DNA of 64,000 nt, from the NCBI RefSeq assembly GCF_003337555.1, contig NZ_QPJK01000007.1, positions 1 through 64,000 on the forward strand, in the 5' to 3' direction. Below are positions 12,513 through 59,695 of this stretch, in pieces. The position numbers were made by a program, and so were the translations under genes. Below the pieces are notes generated by a model. It searched no databases. It was not told the origin of the DNA and worked only from the letters and a program-made list of their open reading frames with translations. Within the stretch, counting starts at the first letter, position 1, and each line of letters opens with the position of its first letter. This DNA is from Pseudorhodoferax soli (lineage in GTDB: Bacteria > Pseudomonadota > Gammaproteobacteria > Burkholderiales > Burkholderiaceae_C).

Positions 12513-12517
12513 CTCGC

Positions 12518-15304: not shown

Positions 15305-15320
15305 TGACTCTCCGATTTCC

Positions 15321-15347: not shown

Positions 15348-15389
15348 GAATTCAAAAATCGAGACAAGCAACAAGAGGTGACCCCAGGC

Positions 15390-16565: not shown

Positions 16566-16600
16566 CGATGTCCACAACCACGAACGGAATGGAGCCCCTG

Positions 16601-18836: not shown

Positions 18837-18869
18837 CTCGTCGCGCGAATCAACCGAGAAGGAACTGAC

Positions 18870-19622: not shown

Positions 19623-19630
19623 GTCTTTCG

Positions 19631-19659
19631 GCCACCACCCGACGCCAATCGGTGGTGGC
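19631..19659. terminator. Bidirectional terminator between SDR and IclR genes
   Basis: GCCACCACC and GGTGGTGGC form a perfect nine-bp stem around an 11-base loop, exactly between the convergent stop codons at 19622 and 19662. Confidence 0.65.
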
Positions 19660-19661
19660 GG

Positions 19662-20411: not shown

Positions 20412-20460
20412 CGCCGAATTCTAGGGTCGGGCGCCCGTGCAGCAAGCCCGACCGCAAAGC

Positions 20461-20483
20461 CGCGACCCTAGCCTGCGGTCGCG
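20461..20483. terminator. Hairpin downstream of xdhC
   Basis: CGCGACC and GGTCGCG flank nine bases, 65 bp past the XdhC stop. It may terminate the minus-strand xdhC transcript just before the iclR promoter. Confidence 0.4.
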
Positions 20484-20547
20484 CCGTGGCTTAAGGGAAC
20501 TGCAGAGAACCCTTGAAGCCCGCGCACCCAGGACCGATCCGCGAACA

Positions 20548-23437: not shown

Positions 23438-23456
23438 CTCAGTCTCCTGGTTGGTA

Positions 23457-24458: not shown

Positions 24459-24474
24459 GCGGTTCCTTCGACCA

Positions 24475-25452: not shown

Positions 25453-25474
25453 GGATGCTCCTTGGAAAATGGTT

Positions 25475-27168: not shown

Positions 27169-27210
27169 GTTCGATCTCTCCAGTTGGAAGTGCAAGCGCG
27201 GCTGGCAGCG

Positions 27211-28089: not shown

Positions 28090-28094
28090 CTGCG

Positions 28095-39157: not shown

Positions 39158-39240
39158 TCTTCTTTGCAGGTTGGTCGGTTCCGGTCGGCCGGAACGGAAC
39201 GATCGTGGCCGCATGGCCACGACCGAGACGGTGGCGAGGC

Positions 39241-40212: not shown

Positions 40213-40258
40213 GCTCTCTCCTACAGTTTTCGTTGTTGAAATGCGGCCGCAGCCGCGG

Positions 40259-44593: not shown

Positions 44594-45592
44594 TCAGCGC
44601 CGACCGCGCTGGTCCAGCCATGCCTGAATCTCGCCCACAATCCCGCGGCGGAATGCCAGCACGCAGGCCATGAACACCAGGCCGATGATCACGGTGCTCC
44701 ACGAGCCCGCGCCAGACAGATACTTCTGCAGTGTCACGACCACACCGGCCCCAACCATCGGGCCCAACAAGGTGCCGACGCCGCCCAGCAGCGCCATCAG
44801 CACCACCTCACCCGAGGCATGCCAGCGCACGTCCGAGAGGGTCGCCACCTGGAAGACCAGGGCCTTCGTCGAGCCGGCCAGACCTGCCAAGCCCGAAGAG
44901 AGGACGAACGCCAACAGCTTGTAGTGGTTCACGCGGTAGCCCAGCGATGTGGCCCTGGCCTCGTTCTCCCGGATGGCGGTCAGCACCTCGCCGAACGGCG
45001 AGTGCACCACCCGGTGGACAAGCGCAAAGCCGGCACAAAAGACAGCGAGCACCAAGTAGTACATGGCCGTGTCGTTGCTCAGGTCGACAAGCCCCAGCAA
45101 CTCGCCACGTGGGATGTTCTGGATGCCGTCCTCGCCGCCTGTGAACGGCGCCTGCAGCGCGAGGAAGTAGATCAGCTGCGCCAGGGCCAGCGTCACCATC
45201 GCGAAATAGATCCCGGTGCGCCGGATCGCAATCGCGCCCACGGCGGTGCCGAGGAGCACGCCGACCAGGGCACCGGCGGCCAGGCCGGCCAGCGGCCCGA
45301 CTCCCAGGCTCGTGCACAGGTAGGCCGTGGCGTACGAAGCGCCGCCGAAGAAGGCCGCGTGGCCGAAGGACAGCAGGCCGGCATAGCCGAGCAGCAGGTT
45401 GAATGCACAGGCGAACAAGGCGTAGCACAGGATCTTCATGACGAAGACCGGGTACACCACGCTCTGGAACGGGACCGCCAGTGCAAGCAGCAACAGGAGC
45501 AGCCACCAGACGTTGGCGTTGCGGGCCGCCGCAGGCGCTGCGCTTCTTGGGGCGTTGAGCGGCATTGCCGCGGCCAGGGATGGATTCTTCAT
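44594..45592 (-). CDS. Branched-chain-type ABC permease LivM
   Basis: The 332-residue inner-membrane permease has eight or more helices and the LivM signature: CYALFACAFNLLLGYAGLLSFGHAAFFGGASY, FTGGEDGIQNIP, and the EAA-like loop IRENEARATSLGYRVNHYKLLAFVLSSGLAGLAGS. With LivH, LivG, LivF and LivK it would import an amino acid or, as often in catabolic operons, an aromatic or other organic acid. Last gene of the 14-gene operon, 10 bp after livH. Confidence 0.93.
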   Translation of the reverse strand: MKNPSLAAAMPLNAPRSAAPAAARNANVWWLLLLLLALAVPFQSVVYPVFVMKILCYALFACAFNLLLGYAGLLSFGHAAFFGGASYATAYLCTSLGVGPLAGLAAGALVGVLLGTAVGAIAIRRTGIYFAMVTLALAQLIYFLALQAPFTGGEDGIQNIPRGELLGLVDLSNDTAMYYLVLAVFCAGFALVHRVVHSPFGEVLTAIRENEARATSLGYRVNHYKLLAFVLSSGLAGLAGSTKALVFQVATLSDVRWHASGEVVLMALLGGVGTLLGPMVGAGVVVTLQKYLSGAGSWSTVIIGLVFMACVLAFRRGIVGEIQAWLDQRGRR

Positions 45593-45602
45593 GCTGCTTC
45601 TC

Positions 45603-46523
45603 TCAGGCTGTCTTGCCGAACAGGCCCGCCGGTTTGACCATCAGCACGATGGCCATGATGACGAAGATGGTGATGGCGGAAGCCTGCGGATAGATGACCT
45701 TGCTCAGGCCCTCGACCAGACCGAGCGCCAGGCCGGTCAGGATTGCCCCGCCGATCGAGCCCATGCCGCCGATGACGACCACCGCGAACACGATGATGAT
45801 GAGGTTCGACCCCATCAGCGGGCTCACCTGGAACACCGGGGCCGCCAGCACGCCGGCGAAGCCGGCCAGGAACACGCCGTAGCCGTAGGTCAGCGTGATC
45901 AGCAGCGGCACGTTGACGCCGAAGGCCTTGAGCAGCTTGGGGTTCTCGGTGCCGGCGCGCATGTACGCGCCGAGCTTCGTCTTCTCGATGGCCCACCATG
46001 TCACGAAGCAGACCGCGGCCGAGGCCAGTACCACCCACAGGCGGTACTTTGGCAACACGATCTGGAGCTGCTCCAGCCGCACTGGCCCGGACAGCGCCGC
46101 GGGCACCGCGTAGGACTGCCCAGCGGCACCGTACCAATGCGTGAACAGCCCTTCCAGCACGAGCGCCAGCCCAAAGGTGAACAGCAACCCGTACAGGTGG
46201 TCCAGGCGGTAGAGCCGCCTCAGCATGGTCCGCTCGATCGCCATCCCGAAGACGGCGACAACCAGGGGTGCGAGCCCAAGCGCCAGCCAGTAGTTGACGA
46301 CCAGGTCGGGCTGGCCCAGCCATGGCCCGAGCTGCGTCATCCCGACCCAGGCGACGAAGGCGCCCAGCATGTACAGCGCGCCATGGGCGAAGTTGATGAC
46401 GTTGAGCAATCCGAAAATGATCGCCAGTCCCAGGCTCAATACGGCGTAGAACGAGCCGTTGATCAGCCCGATCAGCAGCTGCGCGATCAGCGCCTGCGGG
46501 CTCATTGTGAGCAGTGCATCCAT
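45603..46523 (-). CDS. Branched-chain-type ABC permease LivH
   Basis: The 306-residue permease subunit has GAGGAAC before its ATG. Signatures are LIGLINGSFYAVLSLGLAIIFGLLNVINFAHGALYMLGA, AIERTMLRRLYRLDHLYGLLFTFG and VIGGMGSIGGAILTGLALGL. It pairs with LivM in the membrane. The position after the two ATPase genes is typical of imported-acid catabolic operons. Confidence 0.94.
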   Translation of the reverse strand: MDALLTMSPQALIAQLLIGLINGSFYAVLSLGLAIIFGLLNVINFAHGALYMLGAFVAWVGMTQLGPWLGQPDLVVNYWLALGLAPLVVAVFGMAIERTMLRRLYRLDHLYGLLFTFGLALVLEGLFTHWYGAAGQSYAVPAALSGPVRLEQLQIVLPKYRLWVVLASAAVCFVTWWAIEKTKLGAYMRAGTENPKLLKAFGVNVPLLITLTYGYGVFLAGFAGVLAAPVFQVSPLMGSNLIIIVFAVVVIGGMGSIGGAILTGLALGLVEGLSKVIYPQASAITIFVIMAIVLMVKPAGLFGKTA

Positions 46524-46563
46524 CGTGCGTTCCTCTGTGTCTCAGATGTCGGTTCTTGGGGTC

Positions 46564-47274
46564 TCAGACGGCCAGCAGTTCGTCAAGAAGTTCCTGCTTG
46601 CCGGCGAGTTCGTCGCCGTGGATCGTCTCGATCACCCGCCCCCGCTCGATCACGTAGTGACGGTTCGCCAGCGGCGCCGCGAAGCGGAAGTTCTGCTCGA
46701 CCAGCACGATCGTGTAGCCCTTGCTGCGCAACTGCAGGATCACCTCGCCGAGCTTCTGGACGATCACCGGGGCTAGGCCTTCGGTGATCTCGTCGAGCAG
46801 CAGCAGTTTGGCGCCGGTGCGCAGGATCCGCGCCATGGCCAGCATCTGCTGCTCGCCACCAGACAGCCGCGTGCCGGGGCTCTTGGCGCGCAGCTTCAGG
46901 TTCGGGAACATTTCGTAGATCTCCTCGATCGACATGCCGTTCTCGCCCACCACTGGCAGGAGCTTCAGGTTCTCCTCGGTGCTCAGGCCGGCGAAGATGC
47001 CCCGCTCTTCCGGGCAGTAGCCGACGCCGAGGTGGGCAATCCGGTGCTCGGGCAGGCCCATCACATCCTGGCCGCGGATCTGCACCTCGCCGACGCGCCG
47101 GTCGGTCATGCCCAGGATGGCCCGCAAAGTCGTGGTGCGGCCCGCGCCGTTGCGGCCAAGCAGCGTGACCACCTCTCCTTCGGCGACCTCGAGATCGATC
47201 CCGTGGAGGATGTGCGACTCGCCATACCAGGCGTTCAGTCCGCGCACCCGCAGCATGGGGGAGCGTTTTTCCAT
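46564..47274 (-). CDS. Branched-chain-type ABC ATPase LivF, Walker A with Arg in place of Lys
   Basis: The about 236-residue ATPase has LNAWYGESHILHGIDLEVAEGEVVTLLGRNGAGRTTTLRAILG. The Walker A lysine is replaced by arginine (GAGRTTT). The signature TRLSGGEQQMLAMARIL and Walker B LLLLDEITEGLAP are normal. I prefer the ATG at 47274, six bases after GAGGAG, to the one at 47280. The Lys-to-Arg change would be expected to weaken ATP use at one of the two sites, with LivG keeping a normal site. Confidence 0.92.
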   Translation of the reverse strand: MEKRSPMLRVRGLNAWYGESHILHGIDLEVAEGEVVTLLGRNGAGRTTTLRAILGMTDRRVGEVQIRGQDVMGLPEHRIAHLGVGYCPEERGIFAGLSTEENLKLLPVVGENGMSIEEIYEMFPNLKLRAKSPGTRLSGGEQQMLAMARILRTGAKLLLLDEITEGLAPVIVQKLGEVILQLRSKGYTIVLVEQNFRFAAPLANRHYVIERGRVIETIHGDELAGKQELLDELLAV

Positions 47275-47288
47275 CGTCATCTCCTCGC

Positions 47289-48056
47289 TCAGTGGACCGC
47301 AGTCCCCATGTAGGCCTCGACGACGCGTGGGTCCTTCGAGACATCGCGGTAGCAGCCCTCGGCCAGGATGGCGCCGCGCTGCAGCACAGTGATCCGGTCT
47401 GCGATCCGGGACACCACGTTCATGTTGTGCTCTACCATGAGGATGGTCCGGTTCGCTGAGACGCGCTGGATCAGCTCGATGACCATGCCGACATCCTCGT
47501 GGCCCATCCCTTGGGTCGGCTCGTCCAGGAGCATCAGCTCGGGATCGAGCGCGAGCGTCGTCGCGATCTCCAGCGCGCGCTTGCGGCCATAGGAAAGCGA
47601 GCCCGTCTGCTCGTGAGCAAAGCCAGACAGGCCGACGTCCGACAGCAGAGCCATCGCACGGTCGTTGAGCACATCCAGCGAGCGGCGCGGCCGCCAGAAG
47701 TGGAACGTGTTGTTCAGCTCGCGCTGCAAAGCGATCCGCACGTTCTGCAGCACGGTCATGTGCGGAAACACCGCCGAGATCTGGAACGAGCGCACGATGC
47801 CCATGCGCGCGGTCGTCGCGGGGTCGGCGTGCGTGATGTCCTGCCCCTTGAAGACCACCTTGCCGGCCGAAGGGGGCAGAAACTTGGTCAGCAGGTTGAA
47901 CATCGTGGTCTTGCCCGCACCGTTCGGCCCGATCAGCGCATGGATGTCGCCGCGGCGGACCTTGAGGCAGACGCCGTCGACGGCGACGAAGCCCTTGAAC
48001 TCCTTACGCAGGCCGGAAGTTTCCAGCAGGACGTCCTTTGCCATCGCATCCATCAC
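47289..48056 (-). CDS. Branched-chain-type ABC ATPase LivG
   Basis: A 255-residue ATPase with a normal Walker A (GPNGAGKTTMFNLLT), the Liv-specific stretch ITHADPATTARMGIVRSFQ, a modified signature (GSLSYGRKRALEIATTLAL) and Walker B (LMLLDEPTQGMG). Its start overlaps the end of the upstream aldehyde dehydrogenase gene by four bases. It forms a heterodimer with LivF to power LivHM. Confidence 0.93.
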   Translation of the reverse strand: MMDAMAKDVLLETSGLRKEFKGFVAVDGVCLKVRRGDIHALIGPNGAGKTTMFNLLTKFLPPSAGKVVFKGQDITHADPATTARMGIVRSFQISAVFPHMTVLQNVRIALQRELNNTFHFWRPRRSLDVLNDRAMALLSDVGLSGFAHEQTGSLSYGRKRALEIATTLALDPELMLLDEPTQGMGHEDVGMVIELIQRVSANRTILMVEHNMNVVSRIADRITVLQRGAILAEGCYRDVSKDPRVVEAYMGTAVH

Positions 48057-49507
48057 ATACCCCCCATGCAGAGGTACTTGAGCTCCAGGTAGTCGTCGAT
48101 GCCGTACTTCGAGCCCTCGCGGCCCAGGCCGCTTTCCTTCACGCCGCCGAAGGGCGCGACCTCGGTGGAGATCAGGCCTTCGTTGATGCCGACCATGCCG
48201 AACTCGAGCCCCTCGGCCACGCGCCAGACACGCGCGATGTCGCGGCCGTAGAAGTACGCGGCCAGGCCGAAGTTCGTGTCGTTGGCCAGCGCGACCGCTT
48301 CGGCCTCCGTGTGGAAGCGGAACAGCGGCGCCACGGGGCCGAAGGTCTCCTCCTTGAAGATGCGCATCTCGGGCTTCGCGTCGGCCAGGACGGTCGGCGC
48401 GTAGAAGTTTCCGCCCAGGCGCTCCCCGCCGACCAGCACGCGCGCGCCGCGGCGCCTAGCATCGGCTACATGCTCCTCGACCTTCTCGAGCGCACCGGCA
48501 TCGATCAGCGGCCCGATGACCGTTCCCGACGCGGCTCCGTCGCCGACCTGCATCTCCGCGGCGGCCTTTGCCAGCTTGCGCGCGAACGCGTCGTACACGC
48601 CGTCCTGGACCAGGAACCGGTTGGTGCAGACGCATGTCTGGCCGGCATTGCGGAACTTGGAGACCAGCGCACCCTTGACCGCAGCGTCCAGGTCGGCGTC
48701 GTCGAACACGATGAACGGCGCGTTCCCGCCCAGTTCCATCGAGGTTTTCTTCACGGTGCCGGCGCACTGCTCCAACAGGACCTTGCCCACCTCCGTCGAG
48801 CCCGTGAAGCTGAGCTTTCGCACCAGCGGGTTCGACGTGAGTTCGCCGCCGATGGCGGCGGCCGAGCCGGTCACGCACGACAACACGCCCTTGGGCACAC
48901 CGGCGCGCTCGGCCAGGAGGCAAAGCGCCAGCGCAGAGAACGGCGTCTGGCTCGCTGGCTTCAGCACCATGGTGCAGCCTGCGGCCAGTGCCGGGCCGGC
49001 CTTGCGCGTGATCATGGCGGCGGGAAAGTTCCACGGCGTGATGGCCGCGCAGACACCGATCGGCTGCTTGATCACCACAATGCGCTTGTCCGGGGCGTGG
49101 CCCGGGATGGTGTCGCCATAGACGCGCTTGGCCTCCTCGGCGAACCATTCGATGAATGATGCGGCGTAGCCGATCTCGCCGCGGCTTTCGGCCAGCGGCT
49201 TGCCCTGCTCCGCGGTCATCAGCGCAGCAAGGTCCTCCTGGTTCTGCAGCATGAGCTCATACCAGCGGCGCAGGATGGCCGCGCGCTCCTTGCCCGTGCG
49301 GCGGCGCCAGTCGCCGCCGGCCGCGTGGGCCGCGGCGATCGCGCGCGAGGTCTCTGTGGCACCCATCCGCGGCACCGTGCCCAGTCCGGAGCCGTCGGAG
49401 GGATTGGTGACGACAATGGTTGCGCCATCGTCTGCGTCGATCCAGGCGCCGTCGATGCAGGCCTGGTGCCGCCACAGCGACGGGTCTTTCAATTGAAGGG
49501 CTGTCAT
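48053..49507 (-). CDS. Succinate-semialdehyde dehydrogenase-like aldehyde dehydrogenase
   Basis: This 484-residue ALDH is closest by signature to GabD-type SSADH: MTAEQGKPLAESRGEIGYAASFIEWFAEEAKRVYGDTIP, ITPWNFPAAMITRKAGPALAAGCTMVLKPA, the catalytic Glu in MELGGNAPFIVFDDADLD and Cys in FRNAGQTCVCTNR. It would turn succinate semialdehyde into succinate. In the same operon are an iron alcohol dehydrogenase and an AHL-lactonase-like protein, the partners it has in the Agrobacterium BlcABC route. Confidence 0.88.
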   Translation of the reverse strand: MTALQLKDPSLWRHQACIDGAWIDADDGATIVVTNPSDGSGLGTVPRMGATETSRAIAAAHAAGGDWRRRTGKERAAILRRWYELMLQNQEDLAALMTAEQGKPLAESRGEIGYAASFIEWFAEEAKRVYGDTIPGHAPDKRIVVIKQPIGVCAAITPWNFPAAMITRKAGPALAAGCTMVLKPASQTPFSALALCLLAERAGVPKGVLSCVTGSAAAIGGELTSNPLVRKLSFTGSTEVGKVLLEQCAGTVKKTSMELGGNAPFIVFDDADLDAAVKGALVSKFRNAGQTCVCTNRFLVQDGVYDAFARKLAKAAAEMQVGDGAASGTVIGPLIDAGALEKVEEHVADARRRGARVLVGGERLGGNFYAPTVLADAKPEMRIFKEETFGPVAPLFRFHTEAEAVALANDTNFGLAAYFYGRDIARVWRVAEGLEFGMVGINEGLISTEVAPFGGVKESGLGREGSKYGIDDYLELKYLCMGGM

Positions 49508-49550
49508 GGTTTTCTTGTGTGGTACGGCTGGGTGGAGCTTGCGGCGCGAC

Positions 49551-51107
49551 TCAGGCAGCTCCCACGGAGCCGATCGCCTCGCGCAGCTTGAAGCGCAGGA
49601 TCTTTCCGGAGCCAGTGCGCGGAATGGAACTCACAAGGTTCACCGACTGGGGAACCTTGTAGGGAGAGATCAGCTGAGCGCAGTGCGCTCGAATGGCCTC
49701 GCCGTCGATCGCGTGCCCCTCGCGGGCCACGACGCAGACGACCGGTACCTCGCCAAGGAACGGGTGCGCGACACCGATTGCCGCGCAGTCGAGCACGGCC
49801 GGGTGCGACAGCACCGCCTCCTCGACCTCGGCCGGCGCGATGTTCTGGCCGCCGCGGATGATCAGCTCCTTCAGCCGCCCGGTGATGGTCAGGTAGCCGT
49901 TGTCATCGCTGCGCGCCAGGTCACCAGTCTGGTACCAGCCGCCCGCGAGCGCTGCGGCGGTCTCCTGCGGCTTGTTCAGGTAGCCCTGCATGACGTTGGG
50001 CCCGCGCACGATCAGCTGACCTTCCTCGCCAACGGGAACGTCCTGGCCCGAGCCGTCGACGATGCGCACCGCCACGCCCGGTAGCGGCACGCCGCAGGAG
50101 CCCATCGTGCGGGGAACCTGGGGGGCGTTCATGGTCACCATGGTCGACGTCTCGGTGATGCCGTAGCCGTCGAGCAGCGGTCGGCCGAACGCCGCTTCGA
50201 AGTCGCGGTTGAGAGCCGCAGGCAGGATAGCCCCCGCCGAGATGAAGTAGCGCACGCCGGGTACGGCAGTCGCACCGGCAGCACGGCCGCCCTCGAGCAG
50301 GTAGTGGAATACCGTCGGCACACCTGGCATCAGCGTGTACCGGCCGCTGCGAAGCTTGCCGAGCACGTCCTGGGTCGAGAACTTTTCGAGCAGGAACTCC
50401 GTGGCGCCGGTCGCCAGCACGCCGAGGACGCAGAGGTTCAGGGCGTAGGAGTGGTACAGCGGCAGCGGGGCCAGTAGGACATCGTCGGCACTCAACCCGG
50501 CAATCGGCGCCCAGCACGCGGCCACGACCCACAGCATGCTGTGCTGCGAGAGCATCACGCCCTTCGGTCGTCCGGTCGTACCCGAGGTGTAGACGATGAA
50601 CGCGGTCGCGTGCAGGTCCGTGGGGTCGCGCGGCTCGGAGCGCGCGGCGCTCTGCACCAGCAGCGCCAGCGAAAGCTGATCCGTCGGATCGTCGCTGCCG
50701 GAGAGGATGATGAGCCGAAGGTGCGGTAGCTCTGGCCTCAACTGCTCGATCAACGGCAGGTGCTGCGGCGCGACCACGATGGCTTTGCAGCGGGCGTCCT
50801 CCAGACGGTAACGAACCTCGGCCTCGGTGGCCTCGTGGCTGATGGGAACGCCGATGCACCCAGCGCGGGCGATGGCGACGCACGACAGCACCCAGTCCAC
50901 CGAGTTGGGCAGCATGATGGCGACGGTGTCGCCGGGGTCGAGCCCCCGGTCCTGCAAGTGGCCGGCGGCGCCTGCCGTCTTGGCAGCGAGCTCTCCGTAG
51001 GTGACCGAAGCGCCACGGGCGTCTTCGAATGCGACCTTGGCGGGGCGGTCCTTGGCGTGCCGGTGAACCAGCACGCCGATCGGGGCGATCAAGTCGGTAC
51101 GAATCAT
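49551..51107 (-). CDS. Acyl-CoA ligase (AMP-forming)
   Basis: A 518-residue ANL-superfamily enzyme starting at 51107 with GGAGA upstream. Motifs: YTSGTTGRPKGVMLSQHS, LDGYGITETSTMV, YQTGDLARSD, GRLKELIIRGGQNIAPAEVEEAVL and the catalytic Lys in RTGSGKILRFKLRE. It activates a carboxylic acid to its CoA thioester via an adenylate. In this operon it would prepare the substrate for the Mo hydroxylase or crotonase steps. The acid is unknown. Confidence 0.92.
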   Translation of the reverse strand: MIRTDLIAPIGVLVHRHAKDRPAKVAFEDARGASVTYGELAAKTAGAAGHLQDRGLDPGDTVAIMLPNSVDWVLSCVAIARAGCIGVPISHEATEAEVRYRLEDARCKAIVVAPQHLPLIEQLRPELPHLRLIILSGSDDPTDQLSLALLVQSAARSEPRDPTDLHATAFIVYTSGTTGRPKGVMLSQHSMLWVVAACWAPIAGLSADDVLLAPLPLYHSYALNLCVLGVLATGATEFLLEKFSTQDVLGKLRSGRYTLMPGVPTVFHYLLEGGRAAGATAVPGVRYFISAGAILPAALNRDFEAAFGRPLLDGYGITETSTMVTMNAPQVPRTMGSCGVPLPGVAVRIVDGSGQDVPVGEEGQLIVRGPNVMQGYLNKPQETAAALAGGWYQTGDLARSDDNGYLTITGRLKELIIRGGQNIAPAEVEEAVLSHPAVLDCAAIGVAHPFLGEVPVVCVVAREGHAIDGEAIRAHCAQLISPYKVPQSVNLVSSIPRTGSGKILRFKLREAIGSVGAA

Positions 51108-51157
51108 CTTGTCTCCAGTGCCAGTCCTGACGGCGCGTGGCGCGCCAGGCCAAGGGC

Positions 51158-51910
51158 TCAAACCATGCTGAAGCCGCCGCTGATGCTGACGACCTGGCCG
51201 GTGATCCAGCCGCCTTCCGCCGAGGCCAGCAACACCGCCATGGGCGCCACATCCCTCGGCTGGCCGAGACGGCGCAGCGGGTAGAGCTTCGTGAGCTTGT
51301 CGCGGTTGGCGGCGATGAACTCCGGATCGTGGGCGGTCTCGATGAGGCCCAGGGCCAGCGTGTTGGCCGTGAGACCGGCGCGGGTTTCGCGTGCGATGGA
51401 CTTCATCAGCGCCACGTTGGCCGCGCGCGCAGCCGCGCCCAATGCCAACCCGGACTCGCCGATCCGCGAGGAGTCGCCGACGATGGTGATGATGCGGCCC
51501 TCGCCCTTGCTCTCTTCGAGGTGCGGCAACGCCGCGTGGGTACAGTTCAGCGTGCCGTACAGGCACACATCGATCTGGCGCTTCCACTCCTGCGGCGTGG
51601 TGTCGGCGAAGCGCTTGCGGATGACCAGTCCGGCGTTGTTGACCAGGATGTTCAGGCGGCCGAACTCGGCCACCGTCCGTGCCACCATGGCCTGGACGGC
51701 CTCCATGTCGGAGATGTCGCAACCGATGGCGAGCGCCTTGCCGCCTCGCTCGCGGATCTCGGCGACCACTCCCTCCGCGGCAGCCTTTGATCCGTTGTAG
51801 TTCACAACGACCGCGGCGCCCTCGTTGGCCAGGCCGACGGCGATCTCGCGGCCGACATCGCGCGCGCCGCCGGTGATCAGTGCAACTTTTCCTTCGAGTC
51901 CCAGTTTCAT
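51158..51910 (-). CDS. SDR-family protein without the catalytic Tyr-Lys pair
   Basis: The 250-residue protein has the Rossmann part of a short-chain dehydrogenase (ALITGGARDVGREIA, DISDMEA, NNAG) and the closing GGWITGQVVSISGGFSMV. At the active site the Ser remains (VGDSSRIGESG), but the expected Y-x-x-x-K is ALGAAARAANVAL, with neither Tyr nor Lys. It may not be a normal oxidoreductase. Its start overlaps the CoxL-like stop (ATGA). Confidence 0.85.
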   Translation of the reverse strand: MKLGLEGKVALITGGARDVGREIAVGLANEGAAVVVNYNGSKAAAEGVVAEIRERGGKALAIGCDISDMEAVQAMVARTVAEFGRLNILVNNAGLVIRKRFADTTPQEWKRQIDVCLYGTLNCTHAALPHLEESKGEGRIITIVGDSSRIGESGLALGAAARAANVALMKSIARETRAGLTANTLALGLIETAHDPEFIAANRDKLTKLYPLRRLGQPRDVAPMAVLLASAEGGWITGQVVSISGGFSMV

Positions 51911-54318
51911 GCTTCTTCCCTTGTTGATTGAAGTCGGTCCGCGTGGATCAGCCGGAACAGGCGCTCCGGTGTCGCGGGAAGTTCGGTGATGCCCACGCCC
52001 AGCGGTGCGAGGGCGTCGGAGATGGCGTTGGCGATCGCCGCCGGCGCGCCAATGGTTCCGCCCTCCCCCATGCCACGGAAGCCACCGAGGGTGTTGGGGG
52101 AGACGGCGGGAAGATGAACGAGCTCCAGGTCCGGCACCTCCGGGGCCGAAGGGACCAGGTAGTCCACGAGGCTGGCGGTGAGCAGCTGGCCGTCCGCGTC
52201 GTAGACCACCTCCTCCAGCAGCGCCGCGCCAACCCCTTGTGCCAGGGCGCCTCGGGTCTGGCCCGTCACGATCAGCGGGTTGATGATGCGGCCGCAGTCC
52301 TCGGCGATCACGTAGCGCTGGATGTGCACGCCATAGGTCTTGGGGTCGACCTCGACCTGGACCATGTGGGTGGCGGAGCTGGTCGTTCCCACCACTGGGT
52401 CGTAGACGCGCGTGACGCATAGTTCCTCGCGGACTTCGGCGGGCACGCGGCCCATCTGCGAGTACAGGGCGTTGGCAAGTTCGGGAAACGTCAGGCTTGC
52501 ATCGGTCGACCGTGCACGGATCACCCCCTGGACGATGTCCAGGTCTTCCGGCGAGGTGTTCAACAGGTGTGCGGCCACGCGCAGCATCCGCGCACGCAGC
52601 TCCCGCGCGGCCAGGATGCCGGCACCGCTGCTGATCACTGCCGTGCGGCTGGCATAGCTGCCGGTGCCGTGAGGCACAGCCGCGCTGCTGCCCGTGACGA
52701 CGCGCAGGTCCTCGATGCGTGCACCGAGTTCATCGGCGAGCACCTGGCCCAGGGTGGTCTCGTGGCCCTGGCCGTGCGAGGCGCAGCCAAACGAGGCCGT
52801 GAGCGCGCCTGTGGAGTCGAGCTGGATCACGCAGGTGTCGGTGCCGGTGTTGATCGGCATGCCGGGCGAGGCCGAGATCCGCGAGCCGATACCGGACAGC
52901 TCTGCGTAGCAAGCGAAGCCGATGCCGATCCAGCGTCCCTCGGCGCGTGCCCGCGCCTGCGCGCGGCGTGCGGCGGCATAGTCGAAGCGCTCCATCGCGG
53001 CATCCAGCCCTTCGATGAAGGCCGAGCGGTCCCAGACGATGCCGACAGCGGTCTTGTAGGGGAACTCGTCCGGACGGACCAAGTTGCGGCGACGGATCTC
53101 TCCCGGGTCGATGCCGAGCTCGAGGGCCGCCATGTCCAGCAGCCGCTCCATGACGAAGGTCGAGGTGGGGCGTCCCACGCCGCGGTAGGGCCCGGTCGGC
53201 GACTTCGGCGTCGTCACGCCCCTGACGTGTCCGTGGTAGCACGGCACCTTGTAGGGGCCTGGCAGGAAGCTGATGACCTGGACAGGCTCGATCCCTGCAG
53301 TCCAGGGATAGATCGAGTACGCGCCCACGTCGCCGACCACTTCGGCCCGCAGCCCCAGGATCTGCCCGTCGTCACCAAGGGCCAGCGAAGCGCTGACGCG
53401 CTCGTCGAAGGCCTGGCTGGTGGACAGCAGGTCCTCGAGCCGGTCTCCGGTCCACTTCACCGCCTTGCCGATCTTGCGGGCCAGCACGCAGACCAGCATC
53501 TCCTCCTGGTACATGGAGGTCTTGCCGCCGAAGCCGCCGCCGACGTCGGGTGCAATGACGGTCAAGCGGTTGCCCGGCATGCCCATCAGGTTGGCCAGGC
53601 CGTCGCGGATGATCCCGGGCACCTGGCTCGACGTGTACAAGGTCAGCGCGTCTCGACCGCGTTCGACCTCCGCCATGTAGCAACGGTTCTCCATCGCCAG
53701 TGAGGTCTTGCGGTGGAAGCGAAAGCGTGCGCCGATGACATGCGGCGCGCCCTTGAACGCTTCGTCGACCTCGCCGCGCACGAAGGCGCGCTCGACCAGG
53801 ACGTTGCTCTTGAGCGAGGCATGCAGGAGCGGAGCGTCAGGGTGTGCGGCCTCCTCGGGATCGGTCGCGACCGGAAGCGGCGTGTAGTCGACCTCGATCA
53901 GTTCCAGAGCGTCTTCGGCGATGTAGCGGCTGTCGGCCAGCACCGCCACGACCGGTTCGCCGACGAAGTGCACCACACCATTGGCCAGCGCGTGGATGGC
54001 GGTCGGCTGGTAGCCACTCATGCGGGAGGTAGCGACCGCCGGCTTGATCAGGCCGGCGATGTCCTGCCAGACGAAGACGCCGCGCACGCCCGGCACGGCG
54101 CGCGCTGCGTCCATGCGGATGGCATCGATGCGCGCATGGGCCTGGTCGCTGCGGAAAACAGCCATGTGCAAGGCGTGCGCCGACGGCCTGTCGTCCACGT
54201 ACCGGCCGTTGCCTGACAGCAGGCGGGCGTCCTCGACGCGCCGCACCGGCTTGCCGACAAGCTTGCCGGTGTCGAGCTCGTCCAGATCTCGGGAGGCGTC
54301 GACGCCTGGCTCACGCAT
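51907..54318 (-). CDS. Molybdopterin-binding large subunit of a Cox/xanthine-dehydrogenase-family hydroxylase
   Basis: The 803-residue protein carries the hammerhead domain (VGKPVRRVEDARLLSGNGRYVDD), Mo-binding glycine runs (PDVGGGFGGKTSMYQEE, ASHGQGHETT) and the active-site Glu in GMGEGGTIGAPAAIANAI. The loop that reads AYRCSFR in true CO dehydrogenases is SPTGPYRGVGRP here, closer to form II (AYRGAGR), so CO is not the expected substrate. It forms an LMS complex with the M and S subunits encoded upstream. Start at 54318 overlaps the lactonase-like gene by 8 bp. Confidence 0.92.
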   Translation of the reverse strand: MREPGVDASRDLDELDTGKLVGKPVRRVEDARLLSGNGRYVDDRPSAHALHMAVFRSDQAHARIDAIRMDAARAVPGVRGVFVWQDIAGLIKPAVATSRMSGYQPTAIHALANGVVHFVGEPVVAVLADSRYIAEDALELIEVDYTPLPVATDPEEAAHPDAPLLHASLKSNVLVERAFVRGEVDEAFKGAPHVIGARFRFHRKTSLAMENRCYMAEVERGRDALTLYTSSQVPGIIRDGLANLMGMPGNRLTVIAPDVGGGFGGKTSMYQEEMLVCVLARKIGKAVKWTGDRLEDLLSTSQAFDERVSASLALGDDGQILGLRAEVVGDVGAYSIYPWTAGIEPVQVISFLPGPYKVPCYHGHVRGVTTPKSPTGPYRGVGRPTSTFVMERLLDMAALELGIDPGEIRRRNLVRPDEFPYKTAVGIVWDRSAFIEGLDAAMERFDYAAARRAQARARAEGRWIGIGFACYAELSGIGSRISASPGMPINTGTDTCVIQLDSTGALTASFGCASHGQGHETTLGQVLADELGARIEDLRVVTGSSAAVPHGTGSYASRTAVISSGAGILAARELRARMLRVAAHLLNTSPEDLDIVQGVIRARSTDASLTFPELANALYSQMGRVPAEVREELCVTRVYDPVVGTTSSATHMVQVEVDPKTYGVHIQRYVIAEDCGRIINPLIVTGQTRGALAQGVGAALLEEVVYDADGQLLTASLVDYLVPSAPEVPDLELVHLPAVSPNTLGGFRGMGEGGTIGAPAAIANAISDALAPLGVGITELPATPERLFRLIHADRLQSTREEA

Positions 54319-55072
54319 ACGCGTCGGCCCCCTTGCGCATCTCACTCCACTGCTGGTCATCATGGCCGAAGACCACCGTGGCGCCTGAGCGCTCGATGCG
54401 CTGGATCTCTTGCAGGGAGGCCGATGCCTGGTTTGCGTCCCAGGTATTCCTCGGGATGATCTCGCGTTCCAGGTTCGCCCGGAGGGCCACAGCGTCGGAG
54501 GCCAGCAGGAACTGGCCGTCGCGGTCCAGCGACACCAGCGCCCCGATCGCTCCAGCCGTGTGACCGGGCAAGGGCACGAGGACGATGCGGCCGTCGCCGA
54601 AGAGATCGTGCTGCGCTTCGATCAGTCGGGTCGGCATCGGATGCTGCCAGTCGGCCGGGATATAGCCCTTCTGGACTGCATCCGGGCCCTGCGCCGCCTC
54701 GAGCTCCTTCTGGTGGCACACCAGGGTGGCACGCTTGAAGAACTCGTTGCAGCCGCAGTGGTCGGAATGGAAGTGCGAGGCCACGACCACGTCGATGTCC
54801 TGCGCCTGCATCCCCAGGGCGGCGAGTTCGGACAGCACGTTGTCGTTCGGCCCGCCGATGGGCACCATGGCCTTGGCCATCGGGCCCCAGCGGCTTTCGG
54901 CATCGGTCACGGTGCTGGGATGGCAGCCCGTATCGAACAGCACGTTTCCCTGGGCATGGCGCAACAACACGCTCGACACCGGCAGTTCGATCGTTTCGGT
55001 GCGTTCCGCGTCCGGGAGGTAGACGCTCTTGCGCATCCGAAGACGCCCGCCACACAGAAGATGCATCTTCAT
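54311..55072 (-). CDS. N-acyl-homoserine-lactonase-family MBL hydrolase
   Basis: This 253-residue protein matches AiiA/AttM lactonases in order: VLFDTGCHPS, the metal site ASHFHSDHCG, KELEAAQGPD, PLPGHTAG, ASDAVALRANLE and FGHDDQQW. Its gene overlaps the coxS-like gene by four bases and the coxL-like gene by eight, so it is made together with the Mo enzyme. In the BlcC (AttM) role it would open gamma-butyrolactone or a related lactone. Quorum quenching is possible but less likely in this context. Confidence 0.87.
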   Translation of the reverse strand: MKMHLLCGGRLRMRKSVYLPDAERTETIELPVSSVLLRHAQGNVLFDTGCHPSTVTDAESRWGPMAKAMVPIGGPNDNVLSELAALGMQAQDIDVVVASHFHSDHCGCNEFFKRATLVCHQKELEAAQGPDAVQKGYIPADWQHPMPTRLIEAQHDLFGDGRIVLVPLPGHTAGAIGALVSLDRDGQFLLASDAVALRANLEREIIPRNTWDANQASASLQEIQRIERSGATVVFGHDDQQWSEMRKGADAYA

Positions 55073-55602
55073 CGCTTTTCCTTCTCTTCGCCGTCGGTGC
55101 CCGCGGCCTCGCGCAGTGCGTTGTTGGCCGTTGCGCACACGCGGAGTGCTTCAACGATTCCCTGGTAGCCCGTGCAACGGCACAGGTTCCCCGAGAGGAC
55201 ATCCCGGATCTCCTCATCGGACTCCAGGGGGTACTTCAGGAGTGCGTCGTGGCAGGTGGCCAGCATCCCTGGCGTGCAGAAGCCGCATTGCAGCCCATGG
55301 CACTCCCGAAAGGCCTCCTGGATGGGGCTGAGCTGGTCGACCGTGCCCATGCCCTCCACGGTGGTGATCTCCGCGCCATGGGCGCGCACCGCAAGCATCA
55401 GGCACGAGCGGACGCTGTCTCCGTCGACCATCACCGTGCACGCGCCGCAGATGCCGTGCTCGCAGCCCACATGGGTTCCGGTCAGGCCCAGCGTGTGCCG
55501 CAGGAAGTCCGACAGCAGCAGCCGCGGCTCGACCCGGTGCTCCTCGACCTGGCCGTTCACCAGCATCCAGACCGGATGCAGCGGAATGACGCGTTCGCTC
55601 AT
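55069..55602 (-). CDS. 2Fe-2S small subunit of the Cox-type hydroxylase
   Basis: A 177-residue electron-transfer subunit with both clusters: the plant-type site GCEHGICGACTVMVDG plus RSCL, and the four-helix site QCGFCTPGM with GNLCRCTGYQGIVEA. The ferredoxin-like domain starts LHPVWMLVNGQVEEH. It passes electrons from Mo to the FAD subunit. ATGA overlaps exist at both ends of the gene. Confidence 0.95.
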   Translation of the reverse strand: MSERVIPLHPVWMLVNGQVEEHRVEPRLLLSDFLRHTLGLTGTHVGCEHGICGACTVMVDGDSVRSCLMLAVRAHGAEITTVEGMGTVDQLSPIQEAFRECHGLQCGFCTPGMLATCHDALLKYPLESDEEIRDVLSGNLCRCTGYQGIVEALRVCATANNALREAAGTDGEEKEKR

Positions 55603-56474
55603 GCGGTCTCTCCTGTGGCGCGCTTCCACGCCTTGCGCATGACGCGCTCCATGACGGCCCGCGCGAGGTGGCGCCGGAACGCGGGCGAGGCCTGCAGGTC
55701 CTGGCGCGGCTCCAGCGAATCGCAGGCGGCATCGATGGCAACGCCCATCGTCTTCTCGTCCAAGCTGCGGCCGAGGAGCGATGCTTCCGCCTCGTGCCGC
55801 CGCAACGGGGTGTCGCCCACGCCCATCATGGCGATGCGCACATCGACGATCTCGCGCTCCCGCACGTCGAACATGACGCCGACCGCCGCCAGGGCGAAGT
55901 CGCCCGCGCGCCGCGAGAACTCCTCGAACGCCCAACCGTTGTGCGCCATTCCGGGCAACTCGACGCGAACGACCAGTTCGTCGTCCTCCAGGCAGCTCGT
56001 CAGCGGCGCCAGAAAGAAGTCTTCGGAGGCGATGACACGCTCTCCACGCACCGACTGCGCGACGATCGTCGCGTCGAGCAGGCGGCTCAGCATTGGCAAC
56101 TCGGCAGCAGGGTCCGCGTGGGACAGGCTGCCACCGATCGTGCCGCGGTTGCGGATGGCCAGGTGAGCCACGTACTTCATGGTCTCGGGGATGACCGGGA
56201 ACACCCTGGCCACCTGGGGCGAGGTCTCCATCACGCGGTGACGCGTGAGCGCGCCCACCGTGAGGCCGCCGTCGCCACGGTCGCAGACGTAGTCCAGCTC
56301 GATGAGCCGGCTGATGTCCACGATGATCTCCGGGCGTACGACCCGGAAGTTCAGCATCGGCGTCAGGCTCTGGCCCCCGGCCATGACCTTGGCGTCGGAG
56401 CCGCGCTCGGTGAGGATGCCCAGGGCTTCCTCGACCGAGTCGGGACAGCAGTAGTCGAACGGTGCCGGCTTCAC
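55599..56474 (-). CDS. FAD-binding medium subunit of the Cox-type hydroxylase
   Basis: The 291-residue subunit starts at GTG 56474, five bases after GAGG. PCMH-type FAD motifs are VMAGGQSLTPMLNFRVVRP and IRNRGTIGGSLSHADPAAELP. The CO_deh_flav_C domain follows (FEEFSRRAGDFALAAVGV). The gene order M-S-lactonase-L differs from the common M-S-L or L-M-S by the insertion of the lactonase gene. Confidence 0.93.
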   Translation of the reverse strand: MKPAPFDYCCPDSVEEALGILTERGSDAKVMAGGQSLTPMLNFRVVRPEIIVDISRLIELDYVCDRGDGGLTVGALTRHRVMETSPQVARVFPVIPETMKYVAHLAIRNRGTIGGSLSHADPAAELPMLSRLLDATIVAQSVRGERVIASEDFFLAPLTSCLEDDELVVRVELPGMAHNGWAFEEFSRRAGDFALAAVGVMFDVREREIVDVRIAMMGVGDTPLRRHEAEASLLGRSLDEKTMGVAIDAACDSLEPRQDLQASPAFRRHLARAVMERVMRKAWKRATGETA

Positions 56475-56485
56475 GTTTTCCTCGC

Positions 56486-58069
56486 TCAGCGGCCCTTGAA
56501 CTGCGGGGCGCGTTTTTCGCCGAAGGCCGCCCGGCCTTCGCGGTAGTCGTCGCTCGCGGCCGCAGCCGTGATCAGGGCCTCGGCGTGCACCAGGTCGAGC
56601 GCGCCGGTTCCCATCGCCATGCCGTTCAGCAACGCCTTCGCGCCGCAAATGGTCAACGGAGCGTTGCCCGCCAGCGACTGTGCGAACACCCGTGCGTCTG
56701 CCATTGGGTCGCCGACGTCGGCCTCACCCTTCCTGCCGCCGCCGATCAGCCGGTCGAGCCAGCTTCGCGCAGACACCGATCCGCCCGTGGCGACGTGGTC
56801 GACGAAGCCGATCTGCAGTGCGCGATCAGCGGTGAACCGCTGTGCGCCGAACAGGATCTTCTTAGCCTCCGGCAAGCCGACCAGGTTCAGGAGCTTGCGA
56901 GTACCCTTCACGCCGTAGATGATGGACAGGCGCGCGGCCGGAATGCCGAAGACAGCATTCGTCGATGCGTACCGGAAGTCGCAAGACATCGCCAGGTGCG
57001 CGCCACCGCCCAGGCAATAGCCCTTGAGCACCGCGATCGTCGGCTTCGACACATTCGCGATCGCGTCGCAACAGCCATCGACCGCGACCTCGTACTCAGT
57101 GGCCTGCGCGGCATTGCCACGGACCGCCTCGAACTCCGCGATGTCCGCGCCCGCACAGAAGTCCTCTCCAGCGCCCGTGAGAATGATTGCGCGCACCTCC
57201 GGGTTGCGCGCCAGCGCGCCGAAGATGATAGGAATGGCCTGCCACATCGCGTAGGTCATCGCGTTGCGGCTTCCCGGCCGGTTGAGGGTGACCACCGCGA
57301 TCTGGTCGGAGATCCACACCTTGATCAGCTCGGCCGTCAGGACGTCCATCGCCGCAGCGGTCGATGCCGCAGACACGGAAGCCGGCTTAGCCGGAGAGGC
57401 TGCAACCACTGCGGGCGGAACCGCCTCTCGGCCAGCGTCCGATGTCTGCACAGATGCGTCGGTCTGTGCGGCAACAACTGGTGTCGCCGCCACAGGTGCC
57501 GGTGCCGCAGCGGACGTCGGAGCATAAGCGGTGGCGGCAGCATCGGCTGTCTCCTGCTGGTCCACGCCACCCAACGCGGCCAAGTCCAGGCCTGCCGGGC
57601 TCGCCGCCGAGCTCCCATCGGCTGCACGTGAAGTGACCTGCTTGCCGAAGAGTTCGAAGAAGTCGTCTGCTGACTTGCGCGCTGCAGCATCGACCATTCG
57701 GGAACCCAGCTGCGCGAGTTTGCCGCCCACGTTCGCTTTCACCGAGTAGCGTAGCAAGGTAAGGTTCGCATCAAGTGCGTCGAGGTTGACGCCGATGTCC
57801 GCCTTCGCAAATCCGGCTGCGCCACCGGAGCCTTCGCCGGTCAACGTGTAGCTGCGGGGCGGCACGATGTTCGAGAGCGTGACCTTCCCGGCGAACCTAG
57901 CCTTGATCGGCCCCACCTTGGATACCACGGTCGCAGTCAACGACCCATCTTCGGCCTTCTCCAGCGTCTCGCAGCCGGGGATGCTGGCGCGCAGTACCTC
58001 CGGATCGTTCAATGCCTCCCAGACCAGTTCTCGCGATGCGCCCAGGCGGGCTTCGCCCAACATCTCCAT
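56486..58069 (-). CDS. CoxG (SRPBCC)-crotonase fusion protein
   Basis: This 527-residue protein has two joined parts. Residues 1-150 are CoxG-like (MLGEARLGASRELVWEALNDPEVLRASIPGCETLEK, ending SADDFFELFGKQV). Residues about 150-245 are an Ala/Pro-rich linker, and residues 250-527 are an enoyl-CoA-hydratase/isomerase domain (VVTLNRPGSRNAM, GAGEDFCAGADIAEF, GYCLGGGAHLAMSCDFRYA). The two Glu of classical hydratases are replaced by His (GGGAHL) and Ala (GIPAARL), while the oxyanion-hole glycines remain. Ordinary CoxG has a membrane anchor instead of this domain. It is followed by the M, S and L genes. Confidence 0.88.
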   Translation of the reverse strand: MEMLGEARLGASRELVWEALNDPEVLRASIPGCETLEKAEDGSLTATVVSKVGPIKARFAGKVTLSNIVPPRSYTLTGEGSGGAAGFAKADIGVNLDALDANLTLLRYSVKANVGGKLAQLGSRMVDAAARKSADDFFELFGKQVTSRAADGSSAASPAGLDLAALGGVDQQETADAAATAYAPTSAAAPAPVAATPVVAAQTDASVQTSDAGREAVPPAVVAASPAKPASVSAASTAAAMDVLTAELIKVWISDQIAVVTLNRPGSRNAMTYAMWQAIPIIFGALARNPEVRAIILTGAGEDFCAGADIAEFEAVRGNAAQATEYEVAVDGCCDAIANVSKPTIAVLKGYCLGGGAHLAMSCDFRYASTNAVFGIPAARLSIIYGVKGTRKLLNLVGLPEAKKILFGAQRFTADRALQIGFVDHVATGGSVSARSWLDRLIGGGRKGEADVGDPMADARVFAQSLAGNAPLTICGAKALLNGMAMGTGALDLVHAEALITAAAASDDYREGRAAFGEKRAPQFKGR

Positions 58070-58109
58070 CTTCTCGGTCTCCTATTGCTTCTTTTCGGGG
58101 CAGTCGATC

Positions 58110-58547
58110 TCAGGCCATGAGTGACTGCAACACGCCGCGTACATCGACCGGGATCGGCGTCGAGCGATTGCTCGCGCGCTCGACGTACACGTGCACGAAC
58201 TCACCCACGGCCGACGAGATGGCTTCATCGTTGCGGAACAGCGCGATCTCGTAGCGCACGCTGCTGCTTCCAAGGTGGACGACCTTCAGCCCTACATCGA
58301 TCGTGTCGGGGAAGCCGATGGACGAGAAGTACGTGCATCGGGTCTCGATCACAAGGCCGATGACTGAGCTCTTCGCGATGTCGAGGACCCCGCGCTCGAT
58401 CAGGTAGCGGTTCACGGCCGTGTCGAAGAACGCGTAGTACACGACGTTGTTCACGTGGCCATAGGAATCGTTGTCACCCCAGCGCGTGTCCTGCCGCATG
58501 AACAGGCGGTACGCATCGCGGGTCGTTGCTTGGACCCTCGGACTCAC
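58110..58547 (-). CDS. Hot-dog-fold acyl-CoA thioesterase (YbgC/4-hydroxybenzoyl-CoA type)
   Basis: The 145-residue protein starts at GTG, overlapping the iron-ADH stop (GTGA). Its active-site stretch RWGDNDSYGHVNNVVYYAFFDTAVNRYL has the Asp and HVNN of the family. FSSIGFPDTIDVGLKVVHLGSSSVRYEIALFRN follows. It would release CoA from a pathway thioester and so balance the ligase. Length normal. Confidence 0.9.
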   Translation of the reverse strand: MSPRVQATTRDAYRLFMRQDTRWGDNDSYGHVNNVVYYAFFDTAVNRYLIERGVLDIAKSSVIGLVIETRCTYFSSIGFPDTIDVGLKVVHLGSSSVRYEIALFRNDEAISSAVGEFVHVYVERASNRSTPIPVDVRGVLQSLMA

Positions 58548-59695
58548 AGCGCCTCCTCGTAGAGCGCTGCCGCGTCGGCTTCGGTGACATCGCGCGGGTT
58601 GTTGACCAACAAGCGGGTCTGCTTCATCGCGTCGCTCGCGAGCTGAGGGATGTCGCCCGAACGGATCCCCAGATCGCGCAGCCGTGTGGGCAGCTTGAGC
58701 TCGCTTGTGAGCTCGCTCAGATAGGTCGACAGCGCGCCAGCCTTCTGCTTCTCGGTCCCCGTGATCTCGGGGAGGATGACCTCGCACAGCTGTGCATACT
58801 GGGTCTGTGCGGCCTCGAGGTTGAACCGAACTACCGGTCCGAGAACCAGCGCGTTGGATAGGCCGTGTGGCACATGGAAGCGCGCCCCGACTGGATACGC
58901 AAGGGCATGCACTGCTGCTACCGGTGCATTTGCAAATGCGATGCCAGCCAGGCAAGCGCCCAGCAGCATGTCTTCGCGCGCCTTCTCGTTGGTCCCGTCG
59001 CAGCAGGCCATGTGGATACTTCCGGCGAGCAGCCGCAGAGCGTCGCGCGCCAGGCAGTCGGACATCGGGTTCTTCAAATGGCGACTCGTGTAGGCCTCGA
59101 TGGCATGGACCATCGCGTCGATTCCGGTTGCTGCGGTCACGTGGGGCGGGAGCCCGAAGGTGAGTTCTGCATCGAGCAACGCAACATCGGGCAGCAGCAA
59201 CGGTGAGACGACACCTTTCTTTTCTCCGGGACCGGTCGTGACGATGGAGATCGGCGTGACCTCCGAACCAGTACCAGCGGTGGTTGGAACGAGGATCAGC
59301 GGAAGGCGTGGTCCTTTGGCCTGGTTCACGCCGTAGACCTGATGTAAGGCCTCCTTGCCGCAGACCAGCAGAGCCGCGAGCTTCGCGACGTCCAACGAAC
59401 TGCCTCCACCGAAACCGATGACGCAATCGGCCTTACAGGAAGAGGCAGCTGCGCATGCGTCCAGGATGACCGTCTCTGGCGGATCGGCCACCACGTCAGC
59501 GTAGATGTGGTAGGCGACGTCGCAAGCCTTCAGGCTCGCGATTGCACCATCGAGCAAGCCTCCAGCGAGCAGTCCGGGGTCGGTCACGATCAACACGCTT
59601 CTGAAGCCCAACGCGCGAACGCGCTCTCCAAGGCGCCGAGCGCCCCCCTTCATCACGCTCAGCGAACGGGTGGTATTGAAGTCGAAGTCCTGCAT
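58544..59695 (-). CDS. Iron-containing alcohol dehydrogenase (type III)
   Basis: This is the 383-residue first gene of the operon. NAD-binding GFGGGSSLDVAKLAALL and LILVPTTAGTGSEVTPISIV are followed by the metal ligands in ATGIDAMVHAIEAYTS and HALAYPVGARFHVPHGLSNA. Members include gamma-hydroxybutyrate dehydrogenases such as BlcB, but also maleylacetate reductases and 1,3-propanediol dehydrogenases. Context with an SSADH and a lactonase favours 4-hydroxyacid oxidation. A conserved operator half lies 22-38 bp upstream. Confidence 0.9.
   Translation of the reverse strand: MQDFDFNTTRSLSVMKGGARRLGERVRALGFRSVLIVTDPGLLAGGLLDGAIASLKACDVAYHIYADVVADPPETVILDACAAASSCKADCVIGFGGGSSLDVAKLAALLVCGKEALHQVYGVNQAKGPRLPLILVPTTAGTGSEVTPISIVTTGPGEKKGVVSPLLLPDVALLDAELTFGLPPHVTAATGIDAMVHAIEAYTSRHLKNPMSDCLARDALRLLAGSIHMACCDGTNEKAREDMLLGACLAGIAFANAPVAAVHALAYPVGARFHVPHGLSNALVLGPVVRFNLEAAQTQYAQLCEVILPEITGTEKQKAGALSTYLSELTSELKLPTRLRDLGIRSGDIPQLASDAMKQTRLLVNNPRDVTEADAAALYEEAL

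Follow-up and report, generated by a model that had tools for sequence, protein, structure and literature searches.

A molybdenum-hydroxylase operon of Pseudorhodoferax soli that may carry a small oxygen-heteroaromatic acid to a four-carbon end

The window analysed in this work is a stretch of 64,000 nucleotides from Pseudorhodoferax soli (contig NZ_QPJK01000007.1, positions 1 to 64,000), and its subject is a run of 14 consecutive minus-strand genes at 44594-59695, read from 59695 down to 44594. Based on translation, family scans and genome comparison, we propose that the operon may serve the catabolism of a small oxygen-heteroaromatic carboxylic acid as its coenzyme A (CoA) thioester, with an exit via 4-hydroxybutyryl-CoA, a tentative reading to which we give a little less than an even chance. 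Its four-carbon (C4) end, from 4-hydroxybutyrate (4HB) through succinic semialdehyde (SSA) to succinate, is the most secure part and is very probable. The genes run in the order iron-dependent alcohol dehydrogenase (Fe-ADH), thioesterase, CoxG-crotonase fusion, CoxM, CoxS, metallo-beta-lactamase-fold (MBL) protein, CoxL, short-chain dehydrogenase/reductase-fold (SDR) protein, acyl-CoA ligase, succinic semialdehyde dehydrogenase (SSADH), LivG, LivF, LivH and LivM. Six of the 13 junctions overlap by 4-8 bp and seven have gaps of 8-50 bp. An earlier sequence-only reading had described a tightly packed 14-gene operon at this place, which is confirmed with a largest gap of 50 bp; the families that it listed were also right, except that its crotonase is in fact a CoxG-crotonase fusion and that the SDR had been omitted.

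The same gene set recurs across Burkholderiales and Rhizobiales, in soil and root-nodule bacteria, and this recurrence is not chance. A scan of genomes with the fusion protein gave 79 loci, of which the 43 matching its crotonase half were compared gene by gene, the other 36 (L064-L099) matching the CoxG half only and standing outside the neighbourhood counts. Identity thresholds were chosen manually, gene by gene (42-65%), and several of the 43 loci are cut off at a contig end or at the limit of the 10 kilobase (kb) flank. On these terms, Fe-ADH was present in 36 loci, thioesterase in 39, CoxG in 36, CoxM in 39, CoxS in 38, MBL in 39, CoxL in 39, SDR in 40, acyl-CoA ligase in 39, LivJ in 29 and LivH in 25; two letter-for-letter identical loci, L038 and L039, are both counted. 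The search for the same gene order that the sequence-only reading had called for was thus run, and both set and order recur in the two groups.

The C4 end is carried first by the Fe-ADH (58544..59695; Pfam ADH_Fe_C, 184 bits), a predicted 4HB dehydrogenase of BlcB type. It is 56% identical to Agrobacterium fabrum BlcB and 30-34% identical to Escherichia coli FucO and to five of the seven paralogues in its own genome, the five used in both the comparison and the tree. BlcB falls inside the clade of the cluster Fe-ADHs with a support of 97/96, on a long branch and against a small background consisting of FucO and these five paralogues. With the model of the Cupriavidus-type 4HB dehydrogenase, NF058672, the protein scores 246 bits, under the cut-off of 500. 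The SSADH (48053..49507) exceeds the cut-offs of the GabD equivalog (835.6 vs 828 bits) and of TIGR01780 (719 vs 646 bits), is one of two genes in the genome over the GabD cut-off, and shares 66% identity with BlcA, 70% with E. coli GabD and 67% with its own paralogue L176. A 4HBT-fold thioesterase with a GTG start codon (58110..58547; Pfam 4HBT_2; PDB 2o5u, 159 bits) follows the Fe-ADH.

The strongest independent hint for the C4 end comes from Bradyrhizobium elkanii plasmid pS15H, where the core genes are kept and a homologue of 4-hydroxybutyryl-CoA dehydratase lies directly between LivJ and CoxG, while the thioesterase, Fe-ADH and SSADH were not found in the 34.7 kb locus. This homologue matches the vinylacetyl-CoA isomerase 6vjr with 797 bits and AbfD, the dehydratase/isomerase of the gamma-aminobutyrate pathway (1u8v), with 574 bits, and its CFQRC and HRRSYVC motifs align; the Cys and His residues therein are, as we assume, cluster ligands of 4-hydroxybutyryl-CoA dehydratase. 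Since three genes are replaced by this one, 4-hydroxybutyryl-CoA is likely to be the node of the pathway, shared by both exits. The earlier claim that C4 units end in succinate is thus well supported, by the BlcB-group Fe-ADH, the GabD-grade SSADH and the dehydratase swap in B. elkanii. Additionally, a locus in a Burkholderiaceae metagenome-assembled genome (L040, 4858-16062) holds the crotonase, a BlcB-type Fe-ADH and SSADH together, with no Mo-hydroxylase in the stretch, putting the crotonase close to the C4 end; it also holds a pyrroloquinoline quinone alcohol dehydrogenase, a CaiB-type CoA-transferase and a PcaD-like alpha/beta hydrolase. A dehydratase homologue in Sphingomonas has no Mo-hydroxylase in the 25 kb stretch inspected there and adds no support.

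The MBL protein (54311..55072) is a putative lactonase of the N-acyl homoserine lactone (AHL) lactonase type, in which the HxHxDH motif and the further metal-ligand positions are kept in at least 97% of the 43 MBL rows. It lies between CoxS and CoxL on the same strand in all 38 loci that hold the three genes, with 12-121 bp between the MBL match and CoxL. Ten more stretches, of which two come from contigs that also supplied loci to the 43, show the same order in eight cases. Public annotation names it an N-acyl homoserine lactonase family protein, and it is weakly similar to the lactonases AiiA, AttM and GcL, so that it could be a quorum-quenching AHL lactonase standing in a catabolic operon by chance. 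This explanation is hardly credible, and a main role of the protein in quorum quenching was rejected, because of the constant CoxS-CoxL position and of a score of 151.4 bits with the AttM equivalog, under the cut-off of 390.

The relation to BlcC was examined by identity and by phylogeny. The cluster MBLs form a clade of their own in a tree thinned of near-duplicates (from 61 to 50 rows; CoxL likewise from 50 to 40), and in a tree with BlcC the two fall into separate clades with a support of 100/99 for each. The protein of the window shares 28% identity with BlcC, against 61-68% for five of ten background MBLs. The phylogeny check suggested with the sequence-only reading is thus split: the Fe-ADH groups with BlcB as that reading expected of a BlcABC-type trio, the SSADH (66% to BlcA, 70% to GabD) is uninformative, the MBL stands away from BlcC, and the idea of a BlcABC module inserted into the operon fails on the MBL phylogeny. 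The corresponding function, namely that gamma-butyrolactone, formed by the hydroxylase out of a cyclic ether or hemiacetal, is opened to 4HB by the MBL, is improbable. The BlcB-group Fe-ADH and the joint occurrence of MBL, Fe-ADH and SSADH speak for it, and BlcABC is described as turning gamma-butyrolactone to gamma-hydroxybutyrate and SSA (PMC5924552). Yet no role would remain for the acyl-CoA ligase, thioesterase, crotonase and SDR, in addition to the distance of the MBL from BlcC, and loci of the Rhizobium and Agrobacterium types have the MBL and the Fe-ADH/SSADH block in different operons, although Aminobacter and genome G818 do not.

The hydroxylase is formed by CoxL, the Mo-cofactor subunit (51907..54318; motifs PYRGVGRP and GEGG), CoxM, the flavin adenine dinucleotide subunit (55599..56474; Pfam FAD_binding_5, 147 bits), and CoxS, the subunit with two [2Fe-2S] clusters (55069..55602; Pfam Fer2_2 and Fer2). 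The best solved relative of CoxL is the heteroaromatic-ring hydroxylase quinoline 2-oxidoreductase (1t3q, 565 bits), which points to a hydroxylase of heteroaromatic type. CO oxidation was rejected, since CoxL scores below the CO dehydrogenase cut-offs (501.8 vs 991 with TIGR02416; 587.5 vs 950 with NF040766). For the AMP-forming acyl-CoA ligase (49551..51107; Pfam AMP-binding, 320 bits), fatty-acyl-, feruloyl- and malonyl-CoA synthetases are the nearest solved relatives.

By their active-site residues, the crotonase and the SDR do not fit their family names. The fusion protein of 527 amino acids (56486..58069; Pfam COXG and ECH_1) has CoxG at residues 1 to about 150 and the crotonase domain at about 246-527; of 56 loci, 13, all of them betaproteobacterial, have CoxG in frame upstream of the crotonase at a distance of no more than 500 bp. 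Two Glu residues are given as critical for enoyl-CoA hydration (PMC5834635). In the alignment, both positions are Glu in E. coli PaaF. At the columns E144, E164 and the Tyr of methylmalonyl-CoA decarboxylase (MMCD), the cluster crotonases have H/A/Y in 45 of 45 rows (rows with >50% identity), and B. elkanii, at 46% identity read separately, has H/S/Y; both hydratase glutamates are therefore gone. The Tyr aligns in all 45 rows with that of the E. coli MMCD ScpB, whose active-site Tyr and His we take to be catalytic, and on this basis we propose that the crotonase domain may be a decarboxylase. In the SDR (51158..51910; FabG-like by family and structure searches), all 43 rows have Arg in the Lys column of YxxxK, and the Tyr column is Ala, Gly, Thr or Val, never Tyr, so that a classical alcohol or ketone dehydrogenase is unlikely. 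Structure searches did not discriminate, the nearest folds being 4olq, a putative hydratase/isomerase with no function given, for the crotonase and FabG for the SDR.

These residues also bear on ordinary beta-oxidation, in which the crotonase would hydrate, the SDR would oxidise a 3-hydroxyacyl-CoA to a 6-hydroxy-3-oxo-acyl-CoA, and cleavage would give 4-hydroxybutyryl-CoA. The family names of the two proteins suggest such a course; it is very improbable with both catalytic glutamates of the hydratase absent, an SDR lacking YxxxK, and no thiolase detected by family scans among the 14 operon genes.

We propose the following route, in which a CoA-bound O-heteroaromatic whose lactone is opened would be handled, a proposition that we hold to be evenly poised. 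First, the acid would be taken up via the Liv importer, of which the operon encodes, by family scan, the LivG-type (47289..48056) and LivF-type (46564..47280) ATPases and the LivH-type (45603..46523) and LivM-type (44594..45592) permeases, and the ligase would form its CoA ester. CoxLMS would then hydroxylate the ring carbon beside the ring oxygen, giving a tautomer of a lactone (a butenolide), with CoxG as a possible membrane or quinone link. The activated C=C bond would be reduced by the SDR lacking YxxxK, and the MBL would hydrolyse the gamma-lactone, giving a 2-substituted malonyl-CoA half ester, (2-hydroxyethyl)malonyl-CoA, from which the crotonase domain, its hydratase residues missing, would remove CO2 to yield 4-hydroxybutyryl-CoA. 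The thioesterase would release 4HB, which the Fe-ADH, placed by family with BlcB, would convert to SSA and the SSADH, placed with GabD, to succinate. In B. elkanii, where the genes are swapped, the last three steps would be replaced by the dehydratase homologue leading to crotonyl-CoA. The best-fitting acid is 3-furoate, as it gives one step per enzyme and as C5 minus CO2 leaves C4; that 3-furoate itself is the substrate is possible, if distinctly doubtful. The outline of the sequence-only reading, an imported acid that is activated with CoA, hydroxylated on a ring, opened as a lactone and passed as C4 to succinate, holds as the best available, with new roles needed for the crotonase and the SDR.

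The alternative that had been named beside that outline is a route like the Hmf pathway of 2-furoate. The ligase and the Mo-hydroxylase would then correspond to HmfD and HmfABC, the MBL would be the lactone hydrolase, the product would be 2-oxoglutarate, and the C4 genes would serve another purpose. The enzyme classes are the same as in hmfABCDE (a CoA synthetase, a Mo-dependent dehydrogenase and the CoA enzyme HmfE), and the lactone hydrolysis there has no gene in the part of the account available (PMC6678421). This alternative is quite improbable and falls short in that it leaves the C4 end unexplained: a pathway to 2-oxoglutarate has no need of a 4HB dehydrogenase or an SSADH, but both accompany the cluster (36/43 and 28/43 loci), and the dehydratase homologue of B. 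elkanii points to a C4-CoA.

Several observations weigh against an O-heteroaromatic acid route with a C4 exit. In genome G818 about 8.5 kb separate CoxL from the MBL, which there stands between the SDR and the crotonase, and in genome G780 no cluster gene accompanies the MBL within 19.9 kb, so the link between MBL and hydroxylase has exceptions. The MMCD-like Tyr of the crotonase is shared by relatives whose function is unknown (4olq and the own paralogue L166), and the column of the ScpB His is Ala in the cluster crotonase; the SDR may be a pseudoenzyme and not a reductase. SSADH passes its hand-set threshold in only 28 of the 43 loci. The dehydratase homologue of B. elkanii is placed by Pfam and NCBIfam in the HpaB family only, under the NCBIfam cut-offs, and the swap is one evolutionary instance, seen on four B. 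elkanii plasmids with identical proteins. Finally, L138, L140 and L143 have a hydroxylase-MBL-SDR core, but the stretches taken there hold no orthologue of the crotonase or of any C4-end gene; L145 and L146 have the core together with some of these orthologues. Around L140, L143, L145 and L146 there are also genes of the HpaB family and, in part, genes for HpaC, amidase, cupin and DUF2848 proteins.

The occurrence of the core in such larger islands with extra genes means that it may serve another ring system, and a different ring system is a serious alternative. The substrate would be another heteroaromatic, larger or containing nitrogen, with the hydroxylase, MBL and SDR entering at a late intermediate and a side fragment going to the C4 end. 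We consider this unlikely, though well worth weighing: L140 and L148 carry a second LMS and CoxG hydroxylase in the island, and the nearest solved relative of CoxL acts on an N-heterocycle. On the other side, the HpaB, DUF2848, cupin and amidase proteins of the islands have no match in the window at E 1e-5, matches of the HpaB family occur in only two of the 43 loci (L033 and L043), and family scans of the 14 operon genes detected neither a ring-cleaving oxygenase nor an amidase or deaminase. Among the islands themselves, the HpaB-family proteins of L146, L148, L149, L140, L143, L145 and L151 (genomes G453, G475, G640 and G451) are 56-63% alike.

The distribution of the cluster is uneven. No close MBL was found in five genus mates of P. 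soli (best E 9.4e-11), so the cluster is patchy within its own genus, and at E 1e-60 a close MBL is rare, being present in 13 of 397 sampled genomes in the order of an Ensifer genome and in two of 399 in the order of the window, the Ensifer genome and the window's own genome included. Full gene sets are also located on Aminobacter and Agrobacterium plasmids. The symbiotic plasmid p42d of Rhizobium etli CFN42 (L100:15928-17762) has a decayed copy in which the MBL is kept beside short CoxS and CoxM genes, with no CoxL annotated beside the MBL in a gene table that omits pseudogenes; MBL matches like that of this relic are found on many Rhizobium plasmids. L038 and L039 are two places on one contig of Rhizobium sp. 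R634 with 20,924 identical bases including the cluster, either a perfect duplication or an assembly artefact. In rhizobia, XdhC- and MocA-like genes of Mo-cofactor maturation adjoin the cluster, with scores below the curated cut-offs, the XdhC family being given by annotation as well.

Two genes of the window stand beyond the Fe-ADH end of the operon: a regulator with two HxlR domains in tandem (59852..60880, plus strand; Pfam HxlR in two stretches), divergent from the operon and recurring in 16 of the 43 loci, and LivJ, the substrate-binding protein of the importer (60923..62140, minus strand; Pfam Peripla_BP_6, 356 bits). A scan for promoters and terminators found nothing exceeding the level of shuffled sequence. 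Downstream of the operon, a likely two-partner secretion pair lies on the minus strand at 37475-43825, comprising a transporter of the ShlB/FhaC type (37475-39220) and a protein with a filamentous-haemagglutinin domain (40259-43825). Acid catabolism is also well represented in a second region, at 10017-29078, where ten scanned open reading frames include two CoA-transferase III genes, one acyl-CoA dehydrogenase and four TctC-type binding proteins.

Judged from gene content, the whole scheme with its two interchangeable exits could be an undescribed aerobic pathway of furan-3-carboxylate, or of a close O-heterocycle, common to root-nodule rhizobia and free-living Burkholderiales; taken whole, this is rather unlikely. 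Among the open-licence literature matches listed, no paper deals with this gene set or with bacterial 3-furoate catabolism. If the reading is true, the label "N-acyl homoserine lactonase family" is misleading in this family of MBLs, and a lactonase is offered for a step without a gene in the related Hmf pathway. The crotonase lacking the glutamates and the SDR lacking YxxxK are two enzyme families with directly testable activities, in a gene set that is common to rhizobia and soil Burkholderiales and of which some copies reside on rhizobial plasmids.

Among known systems, hmfABCDE of Cupriavidus basilensis HMF14 is a 2-furoate pathway ending in 2-oxoglutarate according to the excerpt available (PMC6678421), and it shares with the cluster the CoA activation of the acid, the Mo-dependent ring hydroxylation by HmfABC and a lactone to be opened. 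Within that excerpt no lactonase gene is assigned, and hmfABCDE include no Fe-ADH, SSADH or SDR, whereas the cluster has a dedicated MBL and the 4HB/succinate end; the two were compared by description and not by Hmf sequences. With BlcABC (AttKLM) of A. fabrum C58, encoded on pAtC58, the cluster shares a BlcB-group Fe-ADH, an SSADH of the same general family, an MBL-fold protein and the course from 4HB through SSA to succinate. However, its MBL is not the BlcC orthologue, a CoA-thioester Mo-hydroxylase operon surrounds these genes, and the regulator is a tandem HxlR protein instead of the IclR-type BlcR. The subunit architecture and the CoxG accessory protein are shared with CO dehydrogenase and form II CoxLMS with CoxG, but CoxG is here fused to a crotonase, besides the CoxL scores below the CO dehydrogenase cut-offs; where CO dehydrogenase has its Cys loop, the cluster CoxL reads PYRGVGRP. 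The B. elkanii version has the homologue of 4-hydroxybutyryl-CoA dehydratase (AbfD, 1u8v; 6vjr), in place of which the window and its relatives with a C4 end have the thioesterase, Fe-ADH and SSADH. The cluster would combine a front end of Hmf type with a back end of BlcAB type.

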